The notes below the pieces were generated by a model, which was not told the origin of the DNA, did no database searches, and saw nothing but the letters and a program-made list of their open reading frames with translations. A stretch of DNA of 34,045 nucleotides from Bacteroidaceae bacterium (lineage in GTDB: Bacteria > Bacteroidota > Bacteroidia > Bacteroidales > Bacteroidaceae), in assembly GCA_024398435.1 (NCBI GenBank), contig JAKSJD010000015.1:1-34045 (forward strand). Direction: 5' to 3'. Below, one piece after another: positions 3,400 to 21,219 of this stretch; position 1 is the stretch's first letter, and the number at the start of each line of letters is the position of its first letter. The translations under genes and the position numbers were made by a program.

Positions 3400-3903
3400 T
3401 TAGATGATGGTGTACAGTTCAGTCATTTTGGATATCAGTGCATCGGCACTCTGTACATATTTCGCATAGATTCTGTTTTCTCTTACTGCCTTTTTGAAGT
3501 TCTGATTGTTCGGGTCATCTGCGTATTTGACGATTTCGCTTGCGGTTTCCTGTGCTTTGATTTCTGCGTTCATCTTATCTCTTTTCAAGATTTGCATACA
3601 GTCCTCAATGTCGCTCCGGGAAATTGTTATGTTGCTCAGCTTGTTGCTCACGATTTTAAGCTGTGCGATTTGGTTTTCGCTTTCAGCTTCGATTGCCTTA
3701 ATCTTTCCTCTGAGTTCATCCACAGTCTTTTCAGCGGAGAGTGCACGCTCTTTCCAGTTGAAGCAGGCATCCCATTCGATGTTCTGTTCAGCATATTCGA
3801 AACATCCTTCAAATGCGGTTGCTACATAGGAGTCTTCACCGAGGCTTTCCACGATTTTCTTTATCTTTGCCAGTGCCTTGCGTTCTTCTTCTTTCGTAAC
3901 CAT
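3400..3903 (-). CDS. Coiled-coil hypothetical protein
   Basis: This 167-residue helical protein begins MVTKEEERKALAKIKKIVESLG. A long central heptad-rich segment (about residues 48-100, ERALSAEKTVDELRGKIKAIE) predicts a coiled coil. Similar 'EERKALAKIKKIV..LGEDSYVATAF' proteins are common on gut Bacillota plasmids and prophages without an assigned function (recollection, not a search). It is the first gene after the promoter/operator at 3954-4005 and has an AAAGGAA ribosome binding site. Confidence 0.75.
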   Translation of the reverse strand: MVTKEEERKALAKIKKIVESLGEDSYVATAFEGCFEYAEQNIEWDACFNWKERALSAEKTVDELRGKIKAIEAESENQIAQLKIVSNKLSNITISRSDIEDCMQILKRDKMNAEIKAQETASEIVKYADDPNNQNFKKAVRENRIYAKYVQSADALISKMTELYTII

Positions 3904-3925
3904 CTTTTGTATTCCTTTCTTGTTC

Positions 3926-3938
3926 GGGGTATATCCCC
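3926..3938 (-). promoter_or_regulatory. Leader hairpin of the 3903 operon
   Basis: This GGGG/CCCC inverted repeat with a 5-base loop sits in the 5' leader of the 3903 gene. It matches the element at 2424-2436 in sequence, flanks and distance to the start codon, which points to duplication of a whole promoter-leader module. Confidence 0.5.
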
Positions 3939-3953
3939 TTTCCTTATGGTACT

Positions 3954-4005
3954 ATAATATCACAGATTGTGATGATAGTCAACAAGAAATTACACAAAAT
4001 GTGAA
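3954..4005 (-). promoter_or_regulatory. Sigma-A promoter with two repressor operators
   Basis: On the minus strand the -35 TTGACT (3982-3977) and -10 TATTAT (3959-3954) are 17 bp apart. The palindrome ATCACAGATTGTGAT (3959-3973) fills the spacer. A second site, TACACAAAATGTGAA, lies at 3991-4005, centred 32 bp upstream. It drives the 3903 to 2524 operon. Architecture and spacing match the promoters at 2452 and 5401. Confidence 0.85.
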
Positions 4006-4028
4006 GAATGTTTCGAAAAAAATAGATG

Positions 4029-4403
4029 TTACCTACACAATGTGTCAAGCAACATCCGGGCTTGGAACAATGCTCTTGCCTGCACATCCAACCATGTTTC
4101 TCTACGATTCGGGTTGCGTTCTCCACCATTTGTTCTTTTCAATTCGGTTGGATTGCAAAGCCGTTCTGCGATGTCTGCATCATAAATCAGAGAAGAACCA
4201 CCATATGAGTATTCTTTCCAATTCCTTGCACCATTCAGCATGAGGTCATGGTCCTGCTTGGAACCAGTGTAGTCATATTCCGAGTATTGGTCATAAATGA
4301 GCAAATCATCGATAAGGTCAAGTGCATATTGCTTTACGCCTCTCTCCCATGCTGAGATGCATTTTTTCTCGTTTACTCGTTCTCTCAAATCAGCAAGATT
4401 CAT
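4029..4403 (-). CDS. Hypothetical protein common on gut mobile elements
   Basis: This 124-residue protein has the segment NWKEYSYGGSSLIYDADIAERLCNPTELKRT, which I recall from many Bacillota plasmid and prophage proteins of unknown role. The C-terminus (ETWLDVQARALFQARMLL) is helical. AAAGGAG stands 6 bases before the ATG. It is the last gene of the operon that begins at 5361, and its stop lies just upstream of the next promoter region. No biochemical role can be deduced. Confidence 0.75.
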   Translation of the reverse strand: MNLADLRERVNEKKCISAWERGVKQYALDLIDDLLIYDQYSEYDYTGSKQDHDLMLNGARNWKEYSYGGSSLIYDADIAERLCNPTELKRTNGGERNPNRRETWLDVQARALFQARMLLDTLCR

Positions 4404-4415
4404 ATGTTTCTCCTT

Positions 4416-4571
4416 TCAGACAAGTGCCTCTCTTGTAACTGAGATGACATCGTTAATTGATATTCCGACAAATTCAAGTGCTTGTGTTAGAGTCAGTGCT
4501 TGGATGTATATGTTCTGCCTGCCATATATTCCGTTCTCAAAATCTATTGAGTATTCGTATACAGTTCCCAT
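4416..4571 (-). CDS. Small hypothetical protein (51 aa)
   Basis: This short frame starts at the ATG at 4571, with TGAGG about 9 bases upstream, and stops with TGA at 4416-4418. A second in-frame ATG at 4580 is possible but is too close to the same TGAGG. The product starts MGTVYEYSIDFENGIYG and continues into an amphipathic helix (LTLTQALEFVGI). Its stop overlaps the ribosome binding site region of the 4403 gene. It is tightly packed between two supported genes of the same operon. Confidence 0.65.
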   Translation of the reverse strand: MGTVYEYSIDFENGIYGRQNIYIQALTLTQALEFVGISINDVISVTREALV

Positions 4572-4582
4572 GCGTGCCATCC

Positions 4583-4801
4583 TCAGAAATCATATAGCAC
4601 GAACTCTATCATGTCTTTCTCGTTGCGTTTCCGCTGATACCCTTTCCCGAAGTATCGAACTCTCAAGTCACACAGGGTGATAACTCTTTGCAGTTCTGCA
4701 AATGAGGCTGTTGAACCCTCATGTCCACCATTCAGAGAACATTCATATTCGTGTGCACCGATTGCACATCTGATTTCTTCTTCAAGCTGTTCCAGTGTCA
4801 T
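4583..4801 (-). CDS. Small hypothetical protein (72 aa)
   Basis: This 72-residue protein begins MTLEQLEEEIRCAIGAHEYEC and carries two helical stretches followed by a basic segment (RYFGKGYQRKRNEKD). An AAAGGAAA ribosome binding site precedes the ATG. It is the second gene of the operon starting at 5361. No family is recognised. Confidence 0.7.
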   Translation of the reverse strand: MTLEQLEEEIRCAIGAHEYECSLNGGHEGSTASFAELQRVITLCDLRVRYFGKGYQRKRNEKDMIEFVLYDF

Positions 4802-4845
4802 ATTGATTTCCTTTCACCCCGTGTTGCCGATAGGTCAGCATATTT

Positions 4846-5361
4846 TCAGAAGTTGTAATCGTAGAATTCTCGTCTGCCTTTGTGCAGTGTCAGATTTCCG
4901 GGCGTTCCGTACTGTCCGTATTTGTTGGACCATCTGAACTCGTAAATCTCTCCGTTCGGGTCACGCTCGTATGTGTATGTCTGTTTATGTTGGTTTGTAC
5001 AGTGTCCGGCAAATCCGCCTGCAATCCATTCCGGTTTGAAGTTCGGGTCGAGTGTTGCCTTATCTCTCTGTACCACAACTTTGCATCTCGTTACTTTGAT
5101 TACTGTTCCTGCATGGCGGTCGGTATAGAGTTTTACGCTCACCCCATCTCCAACCTTAATGTTCGCAGGATTTAACCTTATGCTGATTGCGGACATGATG
5201 TCTTCCTCTGAATATCTGTAGTTGTATTCTTTTGCCTCACCTCTGCTTTCCAGTCTTCCGAGATAGTCCATTCTGTCTACATATATTGGATACTGTCTGA
5301 TGTATTCGATTTGCTTCGGGAATTTGTTTGCGATTTTCTGTTCCAGTTCTGCTTTGTTCAT
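4846..5361 (-). CDS. Hypothetical protein common on Bacillota mobile elements
   Basis: This 171-residue protein has a conserved-looking central core (VGDGVSVKLYTDRHAGTVIK, DKATLDPNFKPEWIAGGFAGH). I recall the core from many unannotated proteins on conjugative elements and prophages of gut Bacillota. The core resembles a small SH3-like beta barrel. GGAGGATG lies 8 bases upstream of the ATG. It is the first gene of the longest minus-strand operon, after the promoter/operator at 5401-5452. Function is unknown. Confidence 0.8.
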   Translation of the reverse strand: MNKAELEQKIANKFPKQIEYIRQYPIYVDRMDYLGRLESRGEAKEYNYRYSEEDIMSAISIRLNPANIKVGDGVSVKLYTDRHAGTVIKVTRCKVVVQRDKATLDPNFKPEWIAGGFAGHCTNQHKQTYTYERDPNGEIYEFRWSNKYGQYGTPGNLTLHKGRREFYDYNF

Positions 5362-5400
5362 GATTCATCCTCCATTCGATATCCTTTATCTGATGGTGCT

Positions 5401-5452
5401 ATCATATCACAATATGTGATAAATGTCAACAACTATTTTCACAAATTGTAAT
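5401..5452 (-). promoter_or_regulatory. Sigma-A promoter with two repressor operators
   Basis: On the minus strand the -35 TTGACA (5429-5424) and -10 TATGAT (5406-5401) are 17 bp apart. The palindrome ATCACAATATGTGAT (5406-5420) fills the spacer. A second, weaker site TTCACAAATTGTAAT lies at 5438-5452, centred 32 bp upstream. It drives the 5361 to 4029 operon. Confidence 0.85.
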
Positions 5453-5497
5453 AAATGTTTTCACAGAAAGTGGCTGAAAACGGCATATTTCGCCCAT

Positions 5498-5720
5498 TCT
5501 CCCAAGAGGCTCAAAAATTCGCCAAGAGCGATTTTTTATCACAGATAGAGATATGCATGGCATCGGAATTTTCGTCGATTTGACCCTTCCGAAAAAAGAC
5601 ACGAAAATGTTCGGATATTCATAGCATTATACGGAAACTCTTAACTTTATGCACAAAAAGCACTGTTTGAGACATCTTTTATGCATAAATATCACGAAAT
5701 GTGTCCACGAACTGTGGACA
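5498..5720 (+). repeat. Long noncoding direct repeat, copy A
   Basis: This noncoding stretch matches 16542-16764 in the same orientation without any gap (constant offset 11,044). My hand count gives about 149 of 211 identical positions. Best-conserved blocks are the left edge TCTCCCAAGAGGCT, a T6-ATCAC block, ATGGCATCG, CGTCGATTT, ATGTT-GGATATTCA, GGAAACTC, TGCATAAA and GTGTCCAC. The left edge is sharp. No good reading frame covers it. It contains a terminator-like hairpin, an operator-like site (5691-5705) and a terminal palindrome. It lies between the 5361 promoter and the 3' end of the integrase. Role unknown: candidates are replication or partition site, structured RNA, or regulatory site. 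Confidence 0.85.
5702..5720. repeat. Palindrome at the end of repeat copy A
   Basis: TGTCCAC (5702-5708) and GTGGACA (5714-5720) are perfect 7-bp inverted arms around GAACT. The equivalent element in copy B has the spacer AGTTC, the reverse complement. It lies about 30 bp from the integrase stop codon and could be a protein-binding site or part of attP. Confidence 0.7.
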
Positions 5721-5736
5721 TCATAAAAATACAGAA

Positions 5737-5764
5737 AAAGAGTCGGGATTATTCCCGACTCTTT
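5737..5764 (-). terminator. Intrinsic terminator of the integrase operon
   Basis: Perfect 12-bp arms (5737-5748, 5753-5764) flank a 4-base loop, followed on the minus strand by a CTTTTTC tract. The stem overlaps the last integrase codons and its stop codon (5749-5751). Confidence 0.85.
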
Positions 5765-7272
5765 CTTATTGTGTGCAGGATGAAGCAGTCCGGCATGAGC
5801 ACGATGACTGTGTTCGCCTGCGTTACATGTGGTGGAGCATATTCTCCCTTGTACGAACTCTTTGTGGGTATCGATAAGTAATCATCTTTGCCTGTGTAGT
5901 AATAGTGGATGTCTATGTGGTCATCCCAAACATAAACCTTCTTGACGAAAGCTGATATCAATCGTTTCTGATATGCCTTGTTCGTGACATCCTGTTCTTT
6001 GAACTTCTGAAGTGCAAAGATGATTCTGTCCTTGTCCACTATCTTTTTGTGAGCATCATGCTTGAGCAATTCCTTGCTGATGAAATCATTCCTGCTTTCC
6101 AGTTCCGAAAGCCTTGTTGTAAGTGATACACTGATAACTCCGCTTTCGATTGCAGACATGATGTTTCGAATTGATTTTTTGTTCGATGCCAACTCAGATT
6201 TCAGTTCCGATACCTCGTCGCTCCGGGATGCCTCAATTTGGTACTTAACAGCAGATTCAGCAAGCCACTCGATTGTTTCATCTTGCAATACGATATCACG
6301 AGTAATCTCAGCAACTTCTCGTTCTATCACATCTTTCGGAATCGAGTCCTTTGAGCATGAATGAGCACGCCTGCCTTGGCAAGTGTAGTAATGGTATGCA
6401 GTGCCGGATTTCCCGAACCCTGTAGTTCCAATCATTGGAGATGCACACATACCGCAAAACAGTTTCCCTGTCAGAAAGAAGTCCTCTTTTTTGGAAACAG
6501 TCTTCTTGTCCTTCAGCCTGTTTTGAACTGCCCGGAAAACATCCTCAGAAACGATTGCAGGAACTCCGTGCTCAATTCGTATATCTATATAAGAATAGAC
6601 ACCAATGTAATTCTCGTTCGACAGGAGTCTATGGAAACTGTTTTTGTTCCATCTCCCACCACGCTTTGTACGAATGCCTTGGTTATTCAGTTCCTCAGCA
6701 ATCTTTGCCAACGGAATGCCATGCAGATAGTCGCTGAATATCTGCCGGACAATTCTTGCCTCAGACTCACGGATAGCAAATCGTCCATCACTGCCTTTCT
6801 CGTATCCAAAAGGCAGTGCGGAATTTACCTTGCAGTTCTCAGCATTGGAACGCATTCCTCTCCGAATATCTTCTGAGAGATTTTCGCAGTAGAACTGATT
6901 GACATTCATCATTGTTCGCAAGGCAAATCGACCTGCGGCAGTATTACCAAATTCCTCTTTGGCATACAGTGTCGAAATCCCGAGTTTGTCAAGCTTGTCC
7001 TCATAAATCAGAGCATTCATCATGCTCCGTGCTATGCGGTTTGACTTGTATGCAATGACTACATCGAATGAATGCTTCTCCGCATCACGCATCATATGTT
7101 GGAAACCAGTTCGTCTATCAGTCTGCCCGGAAACAGCACGGTCTTCATAAGTTCCGACTATCTCTATGTCATTCTGCCTTGCGAATATGGTACATTCTTC
7201 AATCTGCTGTTCAATTGATTCATCCCTTTGCATGTGGGAAGAATATCTCGCATATATTACGCCTTTTCGCAT
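5749..7272 (-). CDS. int: Large serine recombinase (phage integrase)
   Basis: This 507-residue enzyme should catalyse integration at attP/attB and, with a directionality factor, excision. The N-terminal resolvase domain (about 1-140) has the catalytic Ser at 11 in IYARYSS and the arginine-rich active-site region (YKSNRIARS). A recombinase domain follows (FGYEKGSDGRFAIRESEARIVRQIF). A zinc ribbon comes next (CGMC at about 275, YYTCQGRRAHSC at about 295-307), then a long coiled coil (about 350-410). This is the standard layout and length. Its start overlaps the repressor stop by 16 bases, so the two form one operon from the promoter at 7626. No recognisable excisionase is adjacent. Confidence 0.95.
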   Translation of the reverse strand: MRKGVIYARYSSHMQRDESIEQQIEECTIFARQNDIEIVGTYEDRAVSGQTDRRTGFQHMMRDAEKHSFDVVIAYKSNRIARSMMNALIYEDKLDKLGISTLYAKEEFGNTAAGRFALRTMMNVNQFYCENLSEDIRRGMRSNAENCKVNSALPFGYEKGSDGRFAIRESEARIVRQIFSDYLHGIPLAKIAEELNNQGIRTKRGGRWNKNSFHRLLSNENYIGVYSYIDIRIEHGVPAIVSEDVFRAVQNRLKDKKTVSKKEDFFLTGKLFCGMCASPMIGTTGFGKSGTAYHYYTCQGRRAHSCSKDSIPKDVIEREVAEITRDIVLQDETIEWLAESAVKYQIEASRSDEVSELKSELASNKKSIRNIMSAIESGVISVSLTTRLSELESRNDFISKELLKHDAHKKIVDKDRIIFALQKFKEQDVTNKAYQKRLISAFVKKVYVWDDHIDIHYYYTGKDDYLSIPTKSSYKGEYAPPHVTQANTVIVLMPDCFILHTIRKSRE

Positions 7273-7595
7273 CTTGAACTTAAAAATGAAGCAAACGCAA
7301 TGACTGTTTCCAAATCCTTATCGGACAGTTGAATCACTGTGTCGCAAAGTTTCAATACTTTTTTCGGTAGTAAATGTAATGGAGTATGTTCTTCTTCTCT
7401 GCCCATTAATGTATCGACAGAAACATTGAAAATATCTGCATATGCTTCAAGGGTATCTATTCTTGGTTCTCTTGCTCCGGATTCGTACATTGCGACAGCA
7501 CTTGTTGACAATCCGAGCCGGGATGCCAGTTCTGTTTGGGATAAACGCATTTGTTGACGATAAGCGGATAGGTTTGTGGATAGCGTGGACTTCAT
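7257..7595 (-). CDS. CI-like repressor (short HTH_XRE protein)
   Basis: This 112-residue protein has an N-terminal XRE helix-turn-helix (SQTELASRLGLSTSAVAMYE, about residues 19-38, with the usual SGAREPRIDTLEAYADIF extension). A short C-terminal helical part (residues 70-112) may dimerise. It lacks the S24/LexA-like peptidase domain of lambda CI, so RecA-driven self-cleavage is not expected. The ribosome binding site is GAGG, 6 bases before the ATG. It diverges from the Cro-like gene and shares the operators at 7631-7645 and 7666-7680. It is the best candidate for the protein that reads all ATCACA-N3-TGTGAT sites in this genome. Confidence 0.9.
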   Translation of the reverse strand: MKSTLSTNLSAYRQQMRLSQTELASRLGLSTSAVAMYESGAREPRIDTLEAYADIFNVSVDTLMGREEEHTPLHLLPKKVLKLCDTVIQLSDKDLETVIAFASFLSSRCEKA

Positions 7596-7625
7596 GTATT
7601 ACCTCTTTCTTTTTTGGCTGAGCAT

Positions 7626-7707
7626 ATAGTATCACATATTGAGATGAATATCAATAAAAAAAATCATCACAAAATGTGTTGACAATACGAGAACTATGTG
7701 CTAAAAT
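7626..7707. promoter_or_regulatory. Divergent CI/Cro promoter-operator region
   Basis: Minus-strand promoter for the repressor: -35 TTGATA (7654-7649), -10 TACTAT (7631-7626), spacer 17 bp holding ATCACATATTGAGAT (7631-7645). Plus-strand promoter for the Cro-like gene: -35 TTGACA (7679-7684), -10 TAAAAT (7702-7707), spacer 17 bp. A second operator, ATCACAAAATGTGTT (7666-7680), overlaps this -35. The two sites are centred 35 bp apart. The right site would shut off the early plus-strand operon in a lysogen. Confidence 0.85.
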
Positions 7708-7730
7708 ACCCACAGAAAGGAGGCGAACAC

Positions 7731-7952
7731 ATGGATAGAATCGACCACAATAGAAGAGTTGCAGAGAATCTGATTAAAGCTCGTGGGAATCGCTCACAGG
7801 CTGATGTTGCAATGGCGGTTGGCGTATGCCAATCCTCGATTGCGAACTATGAGGCAGGAATCCGAATCCCAAGTGATGAAATCAAGATTCGACTGGCACA
7901 TTTCTTCGGCATGTCTTTAATTGACCTGTTTTTCCCGGAACTGGAAGACTGA
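7731..7952 (+). CDS. Cro-like HTH_XRE regulator
   Basis: The ATG at 7731 (73 residues) was chosen over an upstream in-frame ATG at 7698, because AAAGGAGG lies 7 bases before it and 7698 lies within the promoter. It carries an XRE helix-turn-helix (SQADVAMAVGVCQSSIANYE, about residues 22-41) and ends in a hydrophobic helix (FFGMSLIDLFFPELED). It is the first gene of the rightward early operon and divergent from the repressor, which is the usual place of Cro. Confidence 0.85.
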   Translation: MDRIDHNRRVAENLIKARGNRSQADVAMAVGVCQSSIANYEAGIRIPSDEIKIRLAHFFGMSLIDLFFPELED

Positions 7953-7970
7953 TTTTTTTTAGACATGATT

Positions 7971-7998
7971 ATCACAAATTGAGGTCACAATATGAGAA
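7971..7998. promoter_or_regulatory. Degenerate operator-like sites over the start of the 7992 gene
   Basis: ATCACAAATTGAGGT (7971-7985) and GTCACAATATGAGAA (7984-7998) each keep one good half-site of the phage operator. They cover the ribosome binding site and start codon of the 7992 gene. This could be a weaker third operator set behind cro; chance similarity is possible. Confidence 0.4.
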
Positions 7999-8138
7999 TA
8001 TTCACAGAAACAATATCAGACGAGGACTCCGAAATGATAAATCAGCTTGTACTGGATATCACAAACGAATTCTTCCAAAGCGATGAGGCTGAGGAAGAGT
8101 TCATGGAGTGGAAACGAGAAAGGAGTGTGAAAAAATGA
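7992..8138 (+). CDS. Small acidic early protein (48 aa)
   Basis: The ATG at 7992 is preceded by GAGG at a 7-base spacing, and the frame ends with TGA at 8136-8138, overlapping the next start codon (8135). The product is acidic in the middle (SDEDSEMINQLVLD, SDEAEEEF) and basic at the end (KRERSVKK). No family is recognised. Support comes from the ribosome binding site and translational coupling. It might regulate or antagonise the repressor given its position behind cro, but that is only positional. Confidence 0.65.
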   Translation: MRIFTETISDEDSEMINQLVLDITNEFFQSDEAEEEFMEWKRERSVKK

Positions 8139-8665
8139 AATATGAGGAATGTCCATATTGCGGTGCTCATCTCGACCATGGAGAAATGTGCGATTGTGAA
8201 GAAGCGAAAAAAGAAAGGGACGAACCCGGTGCAACAGGTTCATCCCAAAAGAGAATACTGGAACTGCTTTCCAATATAGCACAAGCGGAATCCCATGTCA
8301 AGGCGTGCACTGATTTGCCGGACATCATTAACCCAAAGCGGATGAGCAGGGATGCAATCATAAAGTGTGTCAAAAAAGAGTTTCCAAGCTTTTCGACAAT
8401 CCTGCTTACGCAATGCCTGCACTGGGAAAAGTATGGAATCATCATACATCCAACTGCATTGCGAAAGATTGTAACTGAGTTTGGAGCAGATGATTGCAAA
8501 CAACAGAAGAAATCGCATGAGAGCAAATCACGCCCGAACAAGCTGACTGTCAGAGTGCCGGACAATGTGATGGAAAAAATGCGGAAATGCATGGAGAGAA
8601 TCGGAATCAAAACGATTCAAGAGTTTGTACTGCTGTCAATCGTGGCAACAATCGATGCTATATGA
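8135..8665 (+). CDS. Zinc-ribbon hypothetical protein
   Basis: The ATG at 8135 (176 residues) was chosen for its AAAGGAG ribosome binding site and overlap with the preceding stop. The first 20 residues carry a putative zinc site (CPYC, then HGEMCDC). The middle is helical. The C-terminus (LTVRVPDNVMEKMRKCMERIGIKTIQEFV) resembles a ribbon-helix-helix module. A DNA-binding early regulator is possible; no family is assigned. Confidence 0.75.
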   Translation: MKYEECPYCGAHLDHGEMCDCEEAKKERDEPGATGSSQKRILELLSNIAQAESHVKACTDLPDIINPKRMSRDAIIKCVKKEFPSFSTILLTQCLHWEKYGIIIHPTALRKIVTEFGADDCKQQKKSHESKSRPNKLTVRVPDNVMEKMRKCMERIGIKTIQEFVLLSIVATIDAI

Positions 8666-8674
8666 GGTGGAAAA

Positions 8675-9019
8675 ATGAACAAAGAAACACATCTGAAAAA
8701 CGCACTGGAGTTAATGCGTGATGCCTATGCATCAGCACTGGCATCAGAGGAAGAATTTAAGAAAATCGGAGTTGATATCGTAAACCCGATTTCGACAATG
8801 TGGCACGGAACTCATGCAGGCGAAATTGAACTGCATGTCTACACAGGCATCCGGGAGATTGCAAATATTATCGGCAAAAAGCTTGAGGACTATTACGGGT
8901 TCGATGGCAGATACAGAGGCGATAAAGTGGTTCTCTCTCATGACGGAATGTTCATGTTTGAACTGCTTCATCTGAACGAAGAAACTTGTGAATTCGAATA
9001 TAAGGAGGACAAAAAATGA
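8675..9019 (+). CDS. Early hypothetical protein (114 aa)
   Basis: This 114-residue protein has an N-terminal helix (HLKNALELMRDAYASALASEEEF) and an alpha/beta remainder with aromatic C-terminal strands (FEYKEDKK at the end). The GAGGTGG ribosome binding site is good. Its stop overlaps the start of the ATPase gene by 4 bases, so it is probably co-translated with the recombination genes. No family is recognised. Confidence 0.7.
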   Translation: MNKETHLKNALELMRDAYASALASEEEFKKIGVDIVNPISTMWHGTHAGEIELHVYTGIREIANIIGKKLEDYYGFDGRYRGDKVVLSHDGMFMFELLHLNEETCEFEYKEDKK

Positions 9020-9948
9020 TTCGCAACCCTAATGACCGCAATAGCACAGATAAGAAAATCCGTTTCCTGTTGGCAGGATATCCGGGCATCGGAAAATCAA
9101 CGCTTGCCCTTTCAGCACCCAAGCCTCTGCTTGTGGATGTTGACCACGGAATTGACAGAATCGAACCGATTCACAGAACTCCCTATATTCAGCCGGAATC
9201 CTACACAGAAGTTCTTGATGACCTTGTTCATGACAATGTCCGGGACTTCGAAACAATCGTTTTCGACACTGGTGGCAAGCTTGTATCCCTCATCGGATTT
9301 TGGGCAATCAAGAACAATCCGAAGTGCGGACAATCCGATGGCAGTCTGTCGCTGAAGGGATACGGAGTTGTAAAGCGTGAGTTCGCACGCCTCATGGATT
9401 ACTGCTACTACGAACTGAACAAGAATGTGATTGTGGTTTTCCATGCTACAGAGGAAAAGGACGGAGAGGAAACAAGACTCCGCATCAAAGTTGAGGGTGG
9501 CACGAGAAACGATGTTTGGGAACCTATGGACCTCGGTGGATTCGTAGAAATGAGAGGAAACAACCGAACAATCGGATTCAGCAACTGCGAAAGATATTTT
9601 GCAAAGGGAACGAGAGGCATCAACGGAGTTTGGAAAATCCCGACTATCTCTGCCGGACAATCCAACAATTTCCTCACCCTGCTGTTTGAGGAGTACAACA
9701 AGAAGAATCGTGCAGAGGTTGACGAGGCTGAGGCAAAAAAGAAGGAATACGATGATGTCATGGAGAAGGCACGGAAGATAATCGATTCTGTTACTGATGC
9801 AGATACTGCCATGATTGCAAGTGAGCAAATGAAGCGACTGGAGCATGTCCTAACATCCGGGCAGGAATCACGCCAAGAGTTCGCTGACAGGATTAAGGAA
9901 TTGGGACTCAAGTATAACTCTGAAACAAAGAGGTATGAGGCAAAATGA
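9016..9948 (+). CDS. Sak4-like RecA-fold ATPase (AAA_24, phage recombination)
   Basis: This 310-residue P-loop ATPase has Walker A GYPGIGKST at residues 21-29, Walker B-like IVFDT at about 81-85, and the conserved LLVDVDHGID strand after Walker A. This is the phage nucleotide-binding protein family that includes Sak4, a RecA-like core supporting single-strand annealing together with SSB. The C-terminal third is helical and charged. It is followed by a PD-(D/E)XK nuclease, a NinB-like protein and an SSB, a typical phage recombination cluster. The specific annealing role is inferred from this context. Confidence 0.88.
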   Translation: MIRNPNDRNSTDKKIRFLLAGYPGIGKSTLALSAPKPLLVDVDHGIDRIEPIHRTPYIQPESYTEVLDDLVHDNVRDFETIVFDTGGKLVSLIGFWAIKNNPKCGQSDGSLSLKGYGVVKREFARLMDYCYYELNKNVIVVFHATEEKDGEETRLRIKVEGGTRNDVWEPMDLGGFVEMRGNNRTIGFSNCERYFAKGTRGINGVWKIPTISAGQSNNFLTLLFEEYNKKNRAEVDEAEAKKKEYDDVMEKARKIIDSVTDADTAMIASEQMKRLEHVLTSGQESRQEFADRIKELGLKYNSETKRYEAK

Positions 9949-10523
9949 GAACTCTCATGACTCATTCACTGCTGTCCTCATGGAAGTATGCAATGCAGGA
10001 TGTGGACAGGGATACCCTATCGGATTTCCTGTCCACACTGAAACGAGAGAAGCACGAACCAACCGAAGCCATGCGAACAGGCATCCGCTTTGAGGACGAG
10101 GTTACATCCATATTGAATGGTGATGTATGCGATGAGTTCCCAACAGCAAGTGAGGTTGCGAAAAGAGTTCGTGGTGGAAAACTTCAACTCGTTGCAAGCA
10201 GAGAGATGACTGTGAACGGCAGAGATATCCTGTTGTACGGCAGATTGGATGTCCTAAAGGCAGGAATCATCTATGACATCAAATATACAGGCAAGTACGA
10301 ACGAGGTAAGTTCTTTTCATCGACTCAGCACCCGACATATTTCGAACTTATCCCGGAGGCAAACGAATTCACATATCTCATAAGTGACGGAAAGGAATTG
10401 TGGACAGAAACATATCGAAGGGATGAAACCCGGAGCATTTTGCCAATGATTTCTGACTTCTTCTCATGGATGCAGATGTGCGGATACATGGACATTTACG
10501 AACAGTATTGGGCGTGTAAATGA
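9945..10523 (+). CDS. PD-(D/E)XK family nuclease
   Basis: This 192-residue protein fits the compact phage PD-(D/E)XK (Cas4/RecB-like) nuclease fold. TGIRFEDEV supplies the upstream glutamate region, GRLDVL the metal-binding Asp, and IIYDIKYTGKY the D-x-K catalytic pair. The later helix with SSTQHPTYFEL resembles the usual QxxxY motif. It overlaps the ATPase stop by 4 bases. It probably acts as the exonuclease or end-processing partner of the ATPase. There is no Fe-S cysteine set, unlike Cas4. Confidence 0.82.
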   Translation: MRTLMTHSLLSSWKYAMQDVDRDTLSDFLSTLKREKHEPTEAMRTGIRFEDEVTSILNGDVCDEFPTASEVAKRVRGGKLQLVASREMTVNGRDILLYGRLDVLKAGIIYDIKYTGKYERGKFFSSTQHPTYFELIPEANEFTYLISDGKELWTETYRRDETRSILPMISDFFSWMQMCGYMDIYEQYWACK

Positions 10524-11032
10524 AGGCAGAGATACTGGATTATTCAATAGCGTTGGACGGAACGCAGAGAGTTACTCTCTTGCTGAAATCCGATTTCCGG
10601 CAGGCATACGATAGATACATCGGGAAAACGCTGAATGTCCGTTTCTCGGAGTGGAAGGAAGCCCGGAGCAACAATCAGAACGCTTTCTTCCACTCCCTCG
10701 TAAATGAGATAGCAGGATGTCGGGGACTGACTGAGGATGATGTAAAGAGGCAGTTGGTTGTAGACTACGGAACACTCGCAAGAGATTCTGATGGGAACAT
10801 CATAGGATTTAAGTTGCCTGTGTCTGCCGATGTATCGACAATCTACCCATACACCTCGTTCTATAAGGAGATAGAGGAGAATGGGAAACGATTCAACTGC
10901 TTCTTGGTGTACAAGCACACATCTGAGATGGACAGTGCAGAATTCAGCAGGCTATTGTCGGGAACTATAGATGAGGCAAAGGAACTCGGTATCGACACAG
11001 ATACCCCGGAAACCAAAGCAAGGTTTTATTAA
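10520..11032 (+). CDS. NinB-like recombination protein (tentative)
   Basis: This 170-residue protein contains SNNQNAFFHSLVNEIA (about residues 52-67), the S-x-x-QNA signature of NinB-like phage proteins, and a C-terminal helix block (SEMDSAEFSRLLSGTIDEAKELGI) also seen in that group. NinB binds single-stranded DNA and works beside annealing proteins, which agrees with the flanking ATPase, nuclease and SSB. The ribosome binding site is weak, and translation is probably coupled to the upstream gene (4-base overlap). Confidence 0.7.
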   Translation: MKAEILDYSIALDGTQRVTLLLKSDFRQAYDRYIGKTLNVRFSEWKEARSNNQNAFFHSLVNEIAGCRGLTEDDVKRQLVVDYGTLARDSDGNIIGFKLPVSADVSTIYPYTSFYKEIEENGKRFNCFLVYKHTSEMDSAEFSRLLSGTIDEAKELGIDTDTPETKARFY

Positions 11033-11043
11033 AGGAGATAAAA

Positions 11044-11460
11044 ATGTTAAATAGCGTATCACTGATGGGCAGACTTGTAAAAGACCCGGAGCAAAGACAG
11101 ACAGGAACTGGCAAGCATGTATCCTCATTCACCATAGCAGTTGACCGAGATTTTGACAGAACTCAGACTGATTTTATCGACATCGTTGCATGGGACGGTA
11201 CATCGGATTTTGTGCAGAAATGGTTCTCCAAAGGAAAGATGATTGCAGTGTCCGGCAGATTACAAATCCGTGATTGGCAGGATAAAAACGGAAATCGCAG
11301 AAAGGCAACCGAGGTGATTGCGAACTCTGTCTACTTCGGTGGTGACAAAAAGACATCTTCCACGGAGAACATCGATGAGCACCAGTACGAAACGGACACT
11401 TATACAAGCGATTTTGAAATGGATATCACACCCCTTACAGATGATGACCTGCCGTTCTGA
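11044..11460 (+). CDS. ssb: Single-stranded DNA-binding protein
   Basis: This 138-residue protein has a canonical OB-fold start (MLNSVSLMGRLVKDPEQR), the conserved FTIAVDR strand, FIDIVAWDGT, GKMIAVSGRLQ and the acidic C-terminal tip DDDLPF used for partner binding. The AAAGGAG ribosome binding site is good. It lies between recombination genes and the replisome organizer, and coats ssDNA during phage replication and recombination. Confidence 0.95.
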   Translation: MLNSVSLMGRLVKDPEQRQTGTGKHVSSFTIAVDRDFDRTQTDFIDIVAWDGTSDFVQKWFSKGKMIAVSGRLQIRDWQDKNGNRRKATEVIANSVYFGGDKKTSSTENIDEHQYETDTYTSDFEMDITPLTDDDLPF

Positions 11461-11471
11461 GGTGCTGAACC

Positions 11472-12239
11472 ATGTCTGCAAAGGATAAAGAAAGGTATTA
11501 CTGGCTCAAACTGGACAGGGGATTCTTCAAGAGGCATGACATCACGATTTTGGAATGCCTGCCAAACGGAAAGGACTATGTCCTGTTCTATCTGAAACTG
11601 ATGTTGGAGAGTGTGGACCATGCCGGAGAACTGCGGTTCTCAGAGATGATACCATACGATGCAAATATGTTGGCATCCATTACAAATACCAATTTCGATA
11701 TCGTGCGAGGTGCTCTCGATGCTTTGCAAGAACTTGGCATGGTGGAGATATGGGATGATAGAACAATTTACATGGAACAGGTTGCGAAACTCCTTGGAAG
11801 TGAAACCCATTCTGCAAAACGGCAGAGAGAACTCCGTGCGAATAAGGCAGGCGACAATGTCGCACTATTGTCGCACGAATGTCGCCAAGAGATAGATACA
11901 GATATAGATACAGAGATAGATACAGATATAGAGTCAGAGATAGAGGAATCGCCTCAGAATATCGTAATTGAAATCCCATTGAAGGATGGGAGCATGTATC
12001 CAATCTATGATTTGAATATCCGGGAATTATCAGCACTCTATCCTGCTGTCGATATCATGCAGGAAATCAGAAAGATGGTGGGATGGAGCAACGGCAATCC
12101 GCAAAAGCGGAAGACAAGAGCGGGTATAAAGCGATTTATCAATGCATGGTTGGCGAAGGAACAGGATAAGGGTTCTCACAAGCCTGCCAACAAAATGGAT
12201 GATTTCTACGCAGTCGCTGACAGATGGAGTGAGTCATGA
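11472..12239 (+). CDS. Replisome organizer (phage_rep_org_N, DnaD-like)
   Basis: This 255-residue initiator has an N-terminal winged-helix domain (YYWLKLDRGFFKRHDITIL through DRTIYMEQV, residues about 9-105), typical of phage replisome organizers that bind the origin and recruit the helicase loader. A basic linker follows, then an acidic low-complexity run of repeated EIDTDIDT units (about 140-158), then a C-terminal helical domain. The DNA for the linker carries the iteron-like and 12-bp tandem repeats annotated separately, so the origin is probably inside this gene. The next gene is the helicase loader. No phage DnaB is seen, so the host helicase is presumably used. Confidence 0.9.
   Translation: MSAKDKERYYWLKLDRGFFKRHDITILECLPNGKDYVLFYLKLMLESVDHAGELRFSEMIPYDANMLASITNTNFDIVRGALDALQELGMVEIWDDRTIYMEQVAKLLGSETHSAKRQRELRANKAGDNVALLSHECRQEIDTDIDTEIDTDIESEIEESPQNIVIEIPLKDGSMYPIYDLNIRELSALYPAVDIMQEIRKMVGWSNGNPQKRKTRAGIKRFINAWLAKEQDKGSHKPANKMDDFYAVADRWSES
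11851..11946. repeat. Candidate replication origin: 11-bp iterons plus 12-bp AT-rich tandem repeats
   Basis: TGTCGC occurs three times with exact 11-bp periodicity (11858, 11869, 11880), and an inverted GCGACA at 11851 forms a palindrome with the first. Directly downstream, a 12-bp unit (G/T)ATAGATACAGA is repeated four and a half times (11891-11946), AT-rich and easily melted. Iterons plus an unwinding element inside the initiator gene is the arrangement of lambda O/ori and related phage origins. The role is inferred. Confidence 0.65.
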
Positions 12240-12760
12240 ACAAGAAAGAGTTTAGCATCTTAATAAAGCTGATTCGGACAACATATCCTCAGCAGAACCT
12301 GTTCCCGAACGAAGAATCCATAGAGATATGGTACAGGATGCTAAAGGACATCCCATATGAGATAGCAATGGTTGCCGTTGAAAAATGGATAAGCATGAAC
12401 AAATGGGCACCTGCGATTTCTGATATCAGAGAGTATGCAACAGGGATGTGCCAAGAGCAGGAACAGGATTGGGGAGAAGGTTGGAATGAGTTGCTCCGGG
12501 CAATAGCAAGATATGGGTACTATGACGAGGATGGTGCACTGGAAAGCATGAGTCCTGTTACGAGAGAAACAGTGCGGAGGCTCGGATTTAAGGAACTGTG
12601 CTTGTCTACGAACCAAATGGCAGACAGGGCAAATTTTCGGACAGTATACGAAACGATTTCCAAGCGGAACAAAGAGGATGCCCAATTGCCGGGAAGATTA
12701 CTGGACCAGATTCAGCAGATGAAATTGCAATCGAAAGGAGTAAACCTGTTGGATGGATAA
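12236..12760 (+). CDS. Replicative helicase loader/inhibitor-like (G39P-like)
   Basis: This 174-residue protein has an N-terminal helical domain (FSILIKLIRTTYPQQNLF, EIWYRMLKDIPYEIAMVAVEKW, KWAPAISDIREYA) matching the G39P/DnaI-like loader family of phage SPP1-type systems. The C-terminal half includes GWNELLRAIARYGYYDE and is more variable. It follows the replisome organizer with a 4-base overlap, which is the standard pairing. It should deliver a DnaB-type helicase, presumably the host's, to the origin. Confidence 0.82.
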   Translation: MNKKEFSILIKLIRTTYPQQNLFPNEESIEIWYRMLKDIPYEIAMVAVEKWISMNKWAPAISDIREYATGMCQEQEQDWGEGWNELLRAIARYGYYDEDGALESMSPVTRETVRRLGFKELCLSTNQMADRANFRTVYETISKRNKEDAQLPGRLLDQIQQMKLQSKGVNLLDG

Positions 12761-13791: not shown

Positions 13792-14205
13792 ATGAGCAAA
13801 TATACTCATTGGTGGAGACCGAATGTCGAAAGGGCGTTGCGAGAATATCCACGATTAAAGGCGAAGAAAAACGCCATGCAGGAATGCTCGATAACTCCGA
13901 ACTATAGTGGACTATCTGGTTCGACAGGACCATCTCGGACAACGGAACAGATAGCACTCCGGCAACTGCCGGATGAGGAAGAAAAATGGATAGTAGCAAT
14001 CGAGAGAGCAACGGAAGAAATTGCGAAGCAAAAAGACGGAGCGGATGTTCTGAGGATTGTTGAGGAATGCTACTACAGGAAATCGATGACATTGGCAGGC
14101 GTTGCGATGAAATACTACATGGATGAGAGGACAGCACTCAGACGGAGAAACAGATTCATCGTATCGGTTGCAAAACACATGGGATATTTGAAAGGAGAAC
14201 TTTGA
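13792..14205 (+). CDS. ArpU-like phage late transcriptional regulator
   Basis: This 137-residue protein resembles the ArpU/RinA group, which has a sigma-70 region 4-like C-terminus. A helical N-terminus (MSKYTHWWRPNVERALREYPRLKAK) precedes a conserved middle (TEQIALRQLPDEEEKWIVAIERA) and a C-terminal helix-turn-helix (SMTLAGVAMKYYMDERTALRRRNRFI, about 101-127). Proteins of this family activate late operons. The obvious target here would be the promoter at 16815-16823. The GAGGGG ribosome binding site is good. Confidence 0.85.
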   Translation: MSKYTHWWRPNVERALREYPRLKAKKNAMQECSITPNYSGLSGSTGPSRTTEQIALRQLPDEEEKWIVAIERATEEIAKQKDGADVLRIVEECYYRKSMTLAGVAMKYYMDERTALRRRNRFIVSVAKHMGYLKGEL

Positions 14206-14628: not shown

Positions 14629-15231
14629 ATGGATTTGCGACTGCAATTCGTCAAGTGCCCTCGTGACCCATATTGTAAAGGGTGCTACTACTATAGAGGT
14701 GCTCAGAACAGACAGCACGGAATCATGTATTGTATGTATTGGGATATAGAACCAGGACTTCGTGGATGTCCTCCCGGCAAGGGATGCACAAAATACACGA
14801 AGAAGAAACCAACGAAAAAAGAGATGCGGAATGCAGATTTACAACCAAGGAAAACATCATGGGATAAGGAACGAGGCTATAAACTATATTGCCAAGGGAA
14901 CTATGCGAGAACCATAGCAATAGAATGTTGCTGTTCCACTGCTTCTGTAAATATGATGTTTGCAGAATGGAAGAAGCGTGCTGAGGCAGAAGGAATCGTC
15001 CGGGACAAAATCAGCAGAGAAGTTCCGTCAAAGTGGGATAAAGAACAAGGATACAAACTGTTCTGCGATGGATGGACATATGATGAAATCGCAAAGCATT
15101 TTGAGGTTGGCGGTACAACTGTAGAGCGTGCCTCAGTGATTTGGAGAGATAGAGCAATAGCAGAAGGTATCGACAGAAGGGCAAGAGTGATTCGGAGAAG
15201 AAAAGCAATGAAAGGTGGCAAGAATGATTAA
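14629..15231 (+). CDS. Cys-rich protein with two tandem HTH repeats
   Basis: This 200-residue protein starts with a Cys-rich part (residues 10-56, CKGCYYY, CMYW, GCPPGKGC) likely to bind zinc. Two homologous repeats of about 45 residues follow: WDKERGYKLYCQG... at about 79-123 and WDKEQGYKLFCDG... at about 136-180. Each ends in a W-K/R-x-RA-AEGI motif and looks like a helix-turn-helix (for example YDEIAKHFEVGGTTVE). The tail is very basic (RRARVIRRRKAMKGG). This looks like a DNA-binding protein with a duplicated domain. No family is recognised. The GAGGAG ribosome binding site is strong. Confidence 0.8.
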   Translation: MDLRLQFVKCPRDPYCKGCYYYRGAQNRQHGIMYCMYWDIEPGLRGCPPGKGCTKYTKKKPTKKEMRNADLQPRKTSWDKERGYKLYCQGNYARTIAIECCCSTASVNMMFAEWKKRAEAEGIVRDKISREVPSKWDKEQGYKLFCDGWTYDEIAKHFEVGGTTVERASVIWRDRAIAEGIDRRARVIRRRKAMKGGKND

Positions 15232-16472: not shown

Positions 16473-16541
16473 GGAAATGAGCAAATTGAAACTGACAATC
16501 AGACCAATATATTGCATAAATATAGAGCAAAAAACATGATA

Positions 16542-16764
16542 TCTCCCAAGAGGCTAAAAATTGCGATATTTGCCATTTTTTATCACGGATAGCATTATAT
16601 ATGGCATCGAGAAATTCGTCGATTTAGCCTGTTCACAAAAAAACACTCAAATGTTGGGATATTCACTGAAAGTGCAGGAAACTCCGAACAATATTCACAA
16701 ATAGTGATGATTATGCATGGTTCGGTGCATAAAAATCACAAAAAGTGTCCACAGTTCGTGAACA
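16542..16764 (+). repeat. Long noncoding direct repeat, copy B
   Basis: This is the gap-free counterpart of 5498-5720 (about 70% identical, same strand). It lies in a 418-base stretch without genes (16473-16890), between the early and late operons. It contains the terminator-like hairpin (about 16555-16581), three operator-like sites (16662-16676 TTCACTGAAAGTGCA, 16694-16708 TTCACAAATAGTGAT, 16735-16749 ATCACAAAAAGTGTC) and an end palindrome (16746-16764) whose loop is inverted relative to copy A. The late promoter lies just downstream. The role is unknown. Confidence 0.85.
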
Positions 16765-16814
16765 CACAAAAAATGATGGATTTCTGAATGTTGTCGGATA
16801 GCGTCCTAAATATG

Positions 16815-16823
16815 TGGTATACT
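16815..16823 (+). promoter_or_regulatory. Extended -10 promoter for the late operon
   Basis: TGG-TATACT (extended -10 at 16815-16816, -10 at 16818-16823) has no consensus -35 at 17 bp; a TTGTCG lies too far upstream. This is typical of an activator-dependent promoter, and the ArpU-like protein is the natural candidate. Transcription should start near 16830. The HNH gene is the first gene downstream. Confidence 0.6.
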
Positions 16824-16844
16824 TGCAATCGTGAGAAAGCAAGA

Positions 16845-16875
16845 ATCGGGATGGCAAACGCCATTCCGATTTTTG
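16845..16875 (+). terminator. Promoter-proximal terminator/attenuator of the late operon
   Basis: An 11-bp stem (16845-16855 with 16860-16870, one G-T pair) has a 4-base loop and is followed by a T-run (16870-16874). It lies only about 15 bases after the predicted start of transcription and before the ribosome binding site of the HNH gene. It should terminate or pause RNA polymerase unless an antitermination factor acts. Confidence 0.7.
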
Positions 16876-16890
16876 TTGCCGGAGGAACAT

Positions 16891-17142: not shown

Positions 17143-18115
17143 GAGGTTCAAAGATAATCCTACTGCATATTACGCTTTGAGTGTATGTGCAACATGGGCA
17201 GGCATTGGTTCACTTATGAACGGAGTGACCATGACTCAGACATACGGAATTATTCCTTCCGCTATTTGGGCATTCGGCAACACTCTTGCATGTATGCTTT
17301 TCGTATGGATAGTCGGAAGGGTAAGCTATTGCAGGCAAGTGTTTTGTTCACGGACAATGAAGCTGATTTGCGGAATTATGTGCATATTTCAGAGTTGGTT
17401 GTCCATGAACGGAATGCAGACGATTTTTGCTGATACAGTGCTTGGCGAAAAGTCCGGCATGATTATTGCTTATGCATTGGCAACATTATTTCTGATACTG
17501 CTGATTCGGCACGGAATGGTTAGAAATGTTCTGACAGATGGTTACGGATGGATTGCTGTTTATGCTCTTGCAGTAATTGTGACTGCGATTGCAATGATTA
17601 ACTCGTATGGTCATTACAACGAAATATCTCTCGGATTGAATTATGAGAGCATGAGGACTGGAATTTGGAAATCGATTCTTTTGTTGCCCGGACCTTTTAC
17701 ATATCCTTACTTTTTCGAACTGCTTTCTTACAACGAAAACAATTCTGATGGAACATCGGAAGTAAACATGAAAAAGGCGTTTGTATTAGGTGGATTGATG
17801 TTCGGTGCATACATGCTGATTGTATTTCCTCTTGCATGGGCACAGTTTTCGCCTGCATTGAACATCATAAAAGCAATCCTAATCACAATCATTGGTACAT
17901 CCACACTGAGTTCCGCAATGTATTCGATTTATATTGCATTCGGGAAGAAAATCGGATTTGCGGTGAATGCATTGATAATTCTCGGATGGAGCATCTTGAT
18001 TCCGCTTGGTGTAATGGGTCTTTGGACTCTTATGGCTAATATTCGGATTTATCTTGTCGGACTTGGAATTGTAACAGCGATTGTTCTTGGAGTCATAAAC
18101 AAACATGAGCGATGA
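17129..18115 (+). CDS. Polytopic membrane protein, possible transporter-like
   Basis: The ATG at 17129 (328 residues) was chosen for its AGAAAGG ribosome binding site; it overlaps the HNH stop. About nine to ten hydrophobic helices span nearly the whole length, starting with YYALSVCATWAGIGSLMNG. The glycine-broken first helix recalls APC/LeuT-fold transporters, but I cannot assign a family or substrate. Basic and short cytoplasmic loops fit a plasma-membrane protein. It opens the inserted cassette and overlaps the first PP-loop gene by 11 bases, so it is probably co-expressed with it. It is not a holin by length or position. Confidence 0.75.
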   Translation: MGITKRFKDNPTAYYALSVCATWAGIGSLMNGVTMTQTYGIIPSAIWAFGNTLACMLFVWIVGRVSYCRQVFCSRTMKLICGIMCIFQSWLSMNGMQTIFADTVLGEKSGMIIAYALATLFLILLIRHGMVRNVLTDGYGWIAVYALAVIVTAIAMINSYGHYNEISLGLNYESMRTGIWKSILLLPGPFTYPYFFELLSYNENNSDGTSEVNMKKAFVLGGLMFGAYMLIVFPLAWAQFSPALNIIKAILITIIGTSTLSSAMYSIYIAFGKKIGFAVNALIILGWSILIPLGVMGLWTLMANIRIYLVGLGIVTAIVLGVINKHER

Positions 18116-18923
18116 AACCAGTAACGGAAGAAACCGATTAAAGTCGAAGCATTACAACACAAGAGAAGAGTGGATGGATGTTTGGAACAATTATAAAGAT
18201 GTTCAGACAAAAGAATTCACTGAGGAAATGATAGCTGATGCTGTTTCTGAGATAAAAGAAATATGTGCAGGTAAAGTTCCTGCATATGCTTGGAGTGGTG
18301 GAAAGGATAGCATAGCTTTGCAGATTGTGTGTGAGGATGCAGGCATCAAAAAAGGATTCTGTTGTTACAACGATTTATACTTCCAAAAGAGTATTGATTT
18401 CTTTTATGAGCATTGCCCGGAAGGAGTTGAAATCGTTAATACCGGGGAAGATATTGCTTGGCTTTCAAGAAACCCAAAATTCTTATTCCCGAAAGGTGCT
18501 GTCGCATGGAATGTTAGAACGCACTTACGATATCAGCCTATATATTGCAAGAAAAACAATGTCGACATATTGCTGATGGGCAAACGAAGACAGGATGGGA
18601 ATTGGGTTCCCGATAATATAGTGAATAGAAGTTCCGGTGGCGTGGATATCTATTGCCCATTGAGACATTGGACTCATGAGAATGTTATTTGTGCAATCAG
18701 ACATAGAGGGAAAACACTTTCAAGGTTTTATCTTGATGATGAGATAGGATTCCACTTTGGAGATACAAAGTTTGCAATAATGGGTCCAAGCAGAGGTGAA
18801 TCTGTTTGTGATGCATGGAATAGGATTTATTCCGTTGAGAAAATGAAAGTCATTCAGTGTGCTGAACATGGAATCGAGTCAGCAAGAGAATACTTAAACA
18901 AAAAGAGAGAGGGGTACTATTGA
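18105..18923 (+). CDS. PAPS reductase-like PP-loop protein 1
   Basis: This 272-residue protein has the PP-loop signature YAWSGGKDSIALQIV (SGGKDS at residues 64-69) that binds ATP or PAPS in the PAPS reductase/DndC superfamily. It also has MGKRRQDGNW and the later CPLRHWTHENV, equivalent to the 'P-I-x-x-W' helix of the family. It lacks an obvious C-terminal CxxC redox pair. Such phage proteins are often paired with ParB-fold proteins, as here (2-base gap to 18925). The likely chemistry is adenylation or sulfur transfer to a nucleic acid or small molecule; the substrate is unknown. Confidence 0.88.
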   Translation: MSDETSNGRNRLKSKHYNTREEWMDVWNNYKDVQTKEFTEEMIADAVSEIKEICAGKVPAYAWSGGKDSIALQIVCEDAGIKKGFCCYNDLYFQKSIDFFYEHCPEGVEIVNTGEDIAWLSRNPKFLFPKGAVAWNVRTHLRYQPIYCKKNNVDILLMGKRRQDGNWVPDNIVNRSSGGVDIYCPLRHWTHENVICAIRHRGKTLSRFYLDDEIGFHFGDTKFAIMGPSRGESVCDAWNRIYSVEKMKVIQCAEHGIESAREYLNKKREGYY

Positions 18924-18924
18924 A

Positions 18925-19563
18925 ATGCTTATTGAACAGAAAGATATTAAATTTCTAAAGCATCCAAAGAAGAACATCAGAAAGCACCCGGACAAACAGA
19001 TTTGCGAATATGTTCGGTCTTTGGAAATGTTTGGGCAGACGAAACCAATCATCTGTAATGAGGACGGAGTTGTTCTTGTTGGCAACGGACTTCTTGATGC
19101 ATTGATTCGCATGGGTGCTGAAACCGCTGACTGCTATGTCATGGCAGGCTTGTCTGAGAAAGAACAGATGAAACTGATGATGGCAGACAACAAAGTCTAT
19201 GACCTTGGTTCTACGGATGTTGATGTATTTGATGCATTCGTGAGTGAGTTGCAGGGTGACATTGATGTTCCGGGTTGGGATGAAGAACTGCTTCAGTTGT
19301 TACAGTCAACACCGACTGAAGCAACTAAGGCAGTAAGTAGCTATGGAGCATACACAGAAGAACAGATATCACATCTGTCTGAGAAAAAAATAGAGCACGA
19401 ATTTGTTACTGCTGAACAAACAGGCGGAGCATCTCCGTATGCAAATGTTGCACCGGTAACCAAATCCGCTACTGTTGCACCTGTTGCTGTTGTTGAGGAA
19501 GAAGTCATGGCAACAGGCAAATATGTTATTTGCCCGAAGTGCGGTGAGAAAATATGGCTGTAA
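18925..19563 (+). CDS. ParB/Srx-fold protein 1 with C-terminal zinc knuckle
   Basis: This 212-residue protein has a ParB N-terminal-like domain: IRKHPDKQICEYVRSLEMFGQTKPIICNE and the GNGLLDALIRMG motif (about residues 54-65), the counterpart of GHGR. A variable linker follows, then a C-terminal CPKC-type half zinc motif (ICPKCGEKIWL). It sits between the two PP-loop genes and overlaps the second by 10 bases. Proteins of this kind accompany PAPS-reductase-like partners (IbrB with IbrA; DndB with DndC by analogy). It probably binds DNA or nucleotide to guide its partner. Confidence 0.85.
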   Translation: MLIEQKDIKFLKHPKKNIRKHPDKQICEYVRSLEMFGQTKPIICNEDGVVLVGNGLLDALIRMGAETADCYVMAGLSEKEQMKLMMADNKVYDLGSTDVDVFDAFVSELQGDIDVPGWDEELLQLLQSTPTEATKAVSSYGAYTEEQISHLSEKKIEHEFVTAEQTGGASPYANVAPVTKSATVAPVAVVEEEVMATGKYVICPKCGEKIWL

Positions 19564-20702: not shown

Positions 20703-21219
20703 AGTACATGCACCGCTGAACTCATTGCAGTGGGTGGACAGAACGATGCTCCGGGCAAATGATTATAACCCGAACAAGGTTTCTGAGGACAACCTGCAGT
20801 TGCTCGTGCAATCTATTCTGACAAATGGTTGGACTCTGCCGATAGTATGCAGACCCGATTACACAATCATAGACGGATTCCATAGATGGACTGTATCCGG
20901 GAGAGAACCACTGCTGTCCATGCTTGGAGGCAGAGTTCCTGTTGTTATCGTTGACCATGGAGAAGATGAGTCGGCAGACATCTATGGTACCATCACGCAT
21001 AACAGAGCAAGAGGCACTCATCTTCTTGAGCCAATGAAAGCTATCGTAAAGAGGCTGATGGATGATGGCAAGAGTATCACTGAGATTGGCAAACAGTTGG
21101 GCATGAAACCCGAAGAAGTATTTAGGCTATCGGGATTCTCTCGTGAGGAGTTCTTAGCTATGATGTGTGCAGGTGCTACTGGATATAGCAAAGCTGTTAT
21201 CATCACTGAGAATAAGTGA
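20689..21219 (+). CDS. ParB/Srx-fold protein 2 (IbrB-like)
   Basis: The ATG at 20689 (176 residues) has GAGG 7 bases upstream and overlaps the PP-loop gene. The ParB-like N-terminus reads LRANDYNPNKV, LVQSILTNGWTLPIVCR and IIDGFHRW (the GHGR-type motif), then ITHNRARGTH. A helix-turn-helix-like segment (SITEIGKQLGMKPEEVFRL) follows at about residues 128-146. It pairs with PP-loop protein 2 in the IbrA-IbrB order. It closes the cassette; a 95-base intergenic region separates it from TerS. Confidence 0.9.
   Translation: MDADKVHAPLNSLQWVDRTMLRANDYNPNKVSEDNLQLLVQSILTNGWTLPIVCRPDYTIIDGFHRWTVSGREPLLSMLGGRVPVVIVDHGEDESADIYGTITHNRARGTHLLEPMKAIVKRLMDDGKSITEIGKQLGMKPEEVFRLSGFSREEFLAMMCAGATGYSKAVIITENK

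Follow-up and report, generated by a model that had tools for sequence, protein, structure and literature searches.

The window analysed here, that is, the whole stretch of DNA, corresponds to an entire contig (34,045 bp), in which no terminal overlap of 16 or more bases was found. It carries the gene set of a temperate phage, with a large serine integrase, repressor and cro-like HTH genes, a Sak4-like annealing protein, an SSB, a replisome organizer (TIGR01714, 105.5 bits with a cut-off of 49.8), a helicase-loader-like protein, a RusA-like resolvase, a RinA-family activator, an HNH nuclease and a terminase large subunit. Two related intergenic stretches of 223 bp bracket the integrase-repressor-replication module, as the first-pass annotation of this DNA had stated. 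The features on which our analysis bears are the following.

5401..5429, minus strand: leftward promoter TTGACA-17-TATGAT adjoining copy 1, with an operator in its spacer
5405..5421: operator TATCACAATATGTGATA in the leftward promoter by copy 1
5437..5453: second operator-like site, 32 bp upstream of the operator at 5405
5498..5720, plus strand: copy 1 of the 223-bp repeat, intergenic
5537..5553: operator-like site in copy 1 (matrix rank 10 in the window, the best non-training site)
5690..5706: operator-like site in copy 1 (matrix rank 13)
5735..5766, both strands: terminator-like hairpin between the integrase 3' end and copy 1
5749..7272, minus strand: large serine integrase
7257..7595, minus strand: HTH repressor candidate, 112 aa
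7731..7952, plus strand: cro-like HTH protein
11888..11947, plus strand: tandem 12-bp iterons inside the replisome-organizer gene
13792..14205, plus strand: RinA-family late activator candidate (42 bits, cut-off 31.9)
16542..16764, plus strand: copy 2 of the 223-bp repeat, intergenic
16658..16747, plus strand: three imperfect 17-nt direct repeats in copy 2 (starts at 16658, 16690 and 16731), each with TCAC-N5-GTG
16693..16709: operator-like site in copy 2 (matrix rank 12)
16795..16823, plus strand: promoter-like site with a TG-N-TATACT -10 and a poor -35 (3/6), the probable late promoter
16840..16875, plus strand: hairpin preceding the HNH gene, with 16-nt arms and a T-rich run after it

Copy 1 has the 3' end of the integrase gene on one side and the leftward repressor-type promoter (5429-5401) on the other, while copy 2 follows the last small early ORF, which ends at 16472, and is itself followed by the probable late promoter. 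Both copies are located at operon junctions and adjoin promoter-like sites, and relative to the promoter that each precedes copy 1 is oriented oppositely to copy 2. In the 16795-16890 region, directly before the HNH gene, about 20 nt or less separate the promoter-like site from the hairpin with its T-rich run, a layout resembling lambda pR'-tR', where antitermination is needed. Elsewhere in the window, the protein encoded at 14629-15231 has, by eye, two similar HTH-like halves, and the region between the HNH and terminase genes (18105-21219) contains PAPS-reductase-like and ParB-like genes (weak matches below curated cut-offs) that are perhaps involved in DNA modification.

The gene model leaves gaps at 5362-5748 and 16473-16890, and each copy falls in one of them. 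No reading frame is open in both, and the mismatches between them are distributed 26/25/17 by phase, meaning that there is no third-position signal; a coding reading was rejected on these two grounds, in agreement with the earlier statement that neither copy is coding.

Aligned on the same strand without gaps, at an offset of 11,044, the two copies are identical at 155 of 223 positions, including 149 of the first 211, so that realignment bore out the coordinates, strand, offset and identity of about 149/211 first proposed. When copy 1 was compared by blastn with its own assembly, copy 2 was recovered at an E value of 1.5e-23, and the five other matches were each 18-23 bp long. The pair is also the top ungapped self-match of the window, with a score of 56; the next three self-matches (30, 28.5 and 24) are repeats of the leftward promoters, and the best ungapped scores in three first-order Markov shuffles were 15.5, 15.5 and 16, which confirms that the match is better than shuffled sequence. 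The repeat pair is real and unusual. The claim that it is collinear without a single gap stands as far as net length is concerned, since this is equal in the two copies, whereas gaplessness itself depends on the scoring scheme: four gap-cost schemes gave 1, 13, 17 and 44 gap characters. Because cheap gap costs give gapped alignments, compensating small indels are possible, for example near 5512-5520.

The matches between the copies are clustered, with eight identity runs of at least 8 compared with 3.6 expected (p 0.0016), and this suggests constraint on the copies; the longest run, of 14, is not unusual on its own (p 0.31). A 10.5-bp helical phasing of the conserved blocks was sought and was absent. 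A 38-bp periodicity of matches gave p 0.0045, uncorrected over many periods. Each copy contains a palindrome with 7-bp arms, TGTCCAC-N5-GTGGACA (5702-5720 and 16746-16764), which in copy 2 has one mismatch. Its 5-nt centres in the two copies, GAACT and AGTTC, are reverse complements of each other.

A 17-bp operator, TATCACA-N3-TGTGATA or a close variant, is found in the spacer of three leftward promoters (TTGACA/T-17-TAT(A/G/T)AT), with a second site 31-32 bp upstream of the operator. Palindromic sites occur at early promoters and in the repressor/cro region (2456, 2487, 3958, 3990, 5405, 5437, 7630, 7665 and 7970), the last three surrounding the repressor and cro-like genes. Between 2403 and 5438, the three repressor-type leftward promoters share repeats of 46-87 bp, and each precedes small genes; nine leftward genes were searched, and a PHROG family was matched by 4846-5361 alone. 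A matrix was trained on nine operators, all outside the copies, and its four best further sites are at 5537, 1505, 16693 and 5690. Three of these four lie within the copies, which make up 446 of the 34,045 bases (1.3% of the window). The looser motif TCAC-N5-GTG occurs 13 times in the window, and ten of these occurrences are intergenic (1,892 bases in the gene model). Copy 2 contains it three times, which none of 20,000 Markov draws equalled, and copy 1 has a single occurrence (p 0.006), both values being for a motif picked after viewing the copies.

The operator-like sites are out of register, however: the positions that correspond to 5537, 16693 and 5690 in the partner copy have matrix ranks of 113, 983 and 44, respectively. 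In-register half-sites showed no excess over column shuffles, with p values of 0.13-0.43 for both strands together and 0.10-0.31 for the plus strand, and no sigma-70 promoter scoring above 8 was found in register in both copies. The earlier suggestion that the copies form a regulatory DNA hub finds positive evidence in the enrichment of operator-like sites in the copies and in their position at operon junctions beside promoter-like sites. The longest conserved blocks, TCTCCCAAGAGGCT, ATGGCATCG, TTCGTCGATTT, GGATATTCA and GGAAACTC, contain no operator, and explaining them would call for the sites of a second protein or for an RNA.

Our preferred explanation, which we hold tentatively and with somewhat less than even confidence, is that one cis-acting regulatory DNA region is present in duplicate and is bound by the repressor of the phage and also by a second factor. 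The HTH repressor (7257-7595) would bind the 17-bp operators as well as the operator-like sites inside the copies, and in the lysogen it would silence two promoters, the leftward one by copy 1 and the late one after copy 2. The distant sites might be bridged by the repressor, as is done by lambda CI, but since a Pfam scan of the 112-aa protein found HTH domains only, DNA looping by this repressor is speculative. The longest conserved blocks may bind the second factor, for which the RinA-family activator is a candidate; this is the least supported step of the scheme. A stronger version, according to which the copies are new paired 223-bp nucleoprotein-assembly sites, joined across 11 kb and either linking the lysogeny switch with late expression or moving the module as a unit, is in our opinion hardly probable.

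A structured RNA, which the first-pass annotation had listed among its options, could also account for the conservation. The copies would then be a pair of genes for a single small or leader RNA, transcribed on the plus strand and ended by the downstream hairpin, which we regard as rather unlikely. Plus-strand folds of the bare copies are below those of dinucleotide shuffles (z -2.13 and -3.47), the more so when the downstream hairpins are included (z -5.1 and -5.8); these terminator-like hairpins are found 3' of both copies and have the stem letters GA(G/A)TCGGGAT in common. The plus-strand consensus fold, with five double changes, beats column shuffles, only 3 of 300 being as low, and promoter-like matches occur upstream of the copies at 5460-5489 (9/12) and 16486-16513 (10/12). 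The folding signals, however, are about equal on the minus strand, where the bare copies gave z -2.11 and -2.19 and 2 of 300 shuffles were as low as the consensus fold; across both strands the consensus fold has z -2.2 to -2.8 relative to column shuffles of an alignment of two sequences only. Helices common to both copies are mildly in excess on either strand, with 10 compared with 4.2 expected on the minus strand (p 0.03) and 6 compared with 3.0 on the plus strand (p 0.11), and, taken singly, the two copies fold differently. Any excess of compensatory changes is weak on both strands: the five plus-strand double changes were matched by 46 of 300 shuffles, and the three minus-strand ones were reached by 216 of 300. 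Promoter matches in the region are not in excess (43, with 38.4 in shuffles), and Rfam gave no match at gathering score in the window, sub-threshold ones only. Palindromic DNA would give the same fold signal on both strands.

The direct orientation of the copies around the integrase-repressor-replication module, the integrase gene adjoining copy 1, the palindrome with its inverted centre and the Sak4-like annealing protein encoded by the phage are all consistent with the copies serving in recombination, packaging or partition or as sites of integrase action, one example being borders of module exchange. We consider such a role improbable, because an identity of 70% is low for homologous exchange and the same border pair is absent in the related loci examined. 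That the repeat is a relic, an old intergenic duplication now drifting, would agree with the existence of a single pair, with searches that found no homologues showing conservation, and with operator-like sites at unmatched positions. Against it are the clustering of matches noted above and the equal net length of the copies despite about 87 substitution events, for which assumed indel ratios of 3-10% predict 2.6-8.7 indels, and we find drift distinctly improbable. Far less credence still is given to a second pair of replication origins, related to each other as oriR to oriL in SPP1. The phage does encode a replisome organizer and a helicase-loader-like protein, the copies are richer in A+T than the window (62-63% vs 56%), and copy 1 has one exact TTATNCACA box, at 5647. 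The iterons, however, sit in the organizer gene and are themselves the probable replication origin; copy 1 has a single 11/12 match to them and copy 2 at best 9/12, copy 2 has no exact DnaA-type box, and the most A+T-rich 60-bp windows lie outside the copies. The earlier idea of paired replication sites is weakened by these observations.

Two other readings also failed. In a DGR TR/VR pair the mismatches would be confined to template adenines, which is not the case (A 21, T 19, C 14 and G 14 in copy 1; A 24, T 19, G 15 and C 10 in copy 2), and neither copy is in a target gene, both being in gene-model gaps with no shared open frame. In an antitermination pair of the nut/put type, each site follows an early promoter and is on the strand being transcribed, while copy 1 is upstream of the leftward promoter and not downstream.

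The integrase has its relatives in named genome records mostly in Oscillospiraceae or other Clostridia (39-56% identical in the best segment). The phage looks Clostridia-type, while a gene on another contig of the assembly seems to encode a Bacteroidales-like protein, and the phage contig may have been mis-binned. Since the assembly may be of another group than the phage host, the relatives of the bin may be the wrong hosts to search. Among these relatives, the copies were found in none of the 149 others (150 genomes). In the bin's order, 20 of 393 other genomes had matches at E <= 0.01 (two candidates scored per genome), all of 22-39 bp, and these were rejected after profile rescoring (best E 0.038). 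In the order of an Oscillospiraceae genome taken as centre, matches of 35-43 bp were found in 3 of 394 genomes: one reached E 8.2e-5 in a three-locus search and was dismissed for lying inside a 420-aa ORF, and the other two lie upstream of what we take to be the start of an argininosuccinate synthase gene.

Blastn of phages with each copy gave no match. Sequence patterns from the copies had no match in two IMG/VR searches and 7 and 3 in others, and the latter were discarded, with a best E of 0.2 in the two-copy profile and surroundings that do not continue the match. Profile searches detected nothing in 66 IMG/VR integrase loci (best foreign E 0.37), in 60 genome-contig loci (best E 1.7) or in 11 further loci (best E 1.4), nor in 361 genomes with strict filters or in a set of 350, the last two being searches run without a positive control. 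For the replisome organizer, no IMG/VR locus carried a relative, and among 200 relatives only the phage's own genome did.

Ungapped self-comparison was used to look for analogous pairs in other loci, and flagged 22 of 80 loci in one set and 14 of 60 in a second. In the second set, eight of the 14 were inspected: most pairs lie in ORFs of at least 80 aa, two loci (L111 and L158) have short hairpins, and L123 has one copy outside such ORFs. In the first set, L088 alone was inspected. Many of its 22 flagged loci have pairs of 100-145 bp, 340-770 bp apart and 85-93% identical, with the look of DGR repeats; L088 is the locus that was checked for a reverse transcriptase, and it has one. Its DGR is at 3690-12462, with the reverse transcriptase encoded at 4687-5853. 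The three repeats, at 3696, 4402 and 12352, seem to be a single template with two variable repeats.

Duplicated control regions do occur in phages of this sort, as seen from two loci that each share a gene with our phage and have a duplicated promoter region. These duplications are at 7043-7161 and 17007-17125 in L088 (119 bp, 9,964 bp apart) and at 1-48 and 6608-6655 in L181 (48 bp, 6,607 bp apart); both pairs are shorter than the 223-bp pair and contain clear promoters. If the duplicated cis-acting region that we prefer is confirmed, both the late genes and the leftward accessory genes of a temperate Clostridia-type phage would be governed from a single control region present in two copies, in contrast to the compact lambda switch. 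An RNA or a recombination border, should the copies prove to be either, would matter more.

The first-pass annotation knew of no described element of this kind, and none was recognised in the portions of the open-licence literature available to us. Several known systems nevertheless share some of its traits. The mycobacteriophage stoperators, as far as the accessible part of PMC9283540 describes them, are repressor sites spread across the phage genome, like the sites reported here, but they are numerous and asymmetric, and not a pair of 223-bp regions. In the excerpts of PMC6316719, SPP1 has two related sites, oriL and oriR, about 13 kb apart, one of them intergenic, together with a replisome organizer; the likeness extends to an organizer with iterons in its gene and to two related distant sites, and ends with the organizer-gene iterons, which are absent from copy 2. 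The operators of lambda CI are closer, with a consensus given as TAtCACCGCcaGTGaTA in the consulted sections of PMC10742460 and with operator sets bridged over about 2.3 kb according to those of PMC5880393. A 17-bp palindromic operator, the TATCAC half-site and the overlap with early promoters are common to OL/OR and to our phage, which differs in the 223-bp length of the copies, their long non-operator blocks, their distance of 11 kb and a short candidate repressor. Finally, in the text available from PMC13123087, the phages Phi13 (late activator Ltr) and TP901-1 (late activator Alt) each have four direct repeats upstream of a late promoter, and copy 2 likewise has three imperfect direct repeats upstream of a probable late promoter. 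In TP901-1, these are placed by the same text at -76 to -32, while those of copy 2 are further upstream, and, unlike in either phage, the repeat element described here stands beside a leftward promoter as well.
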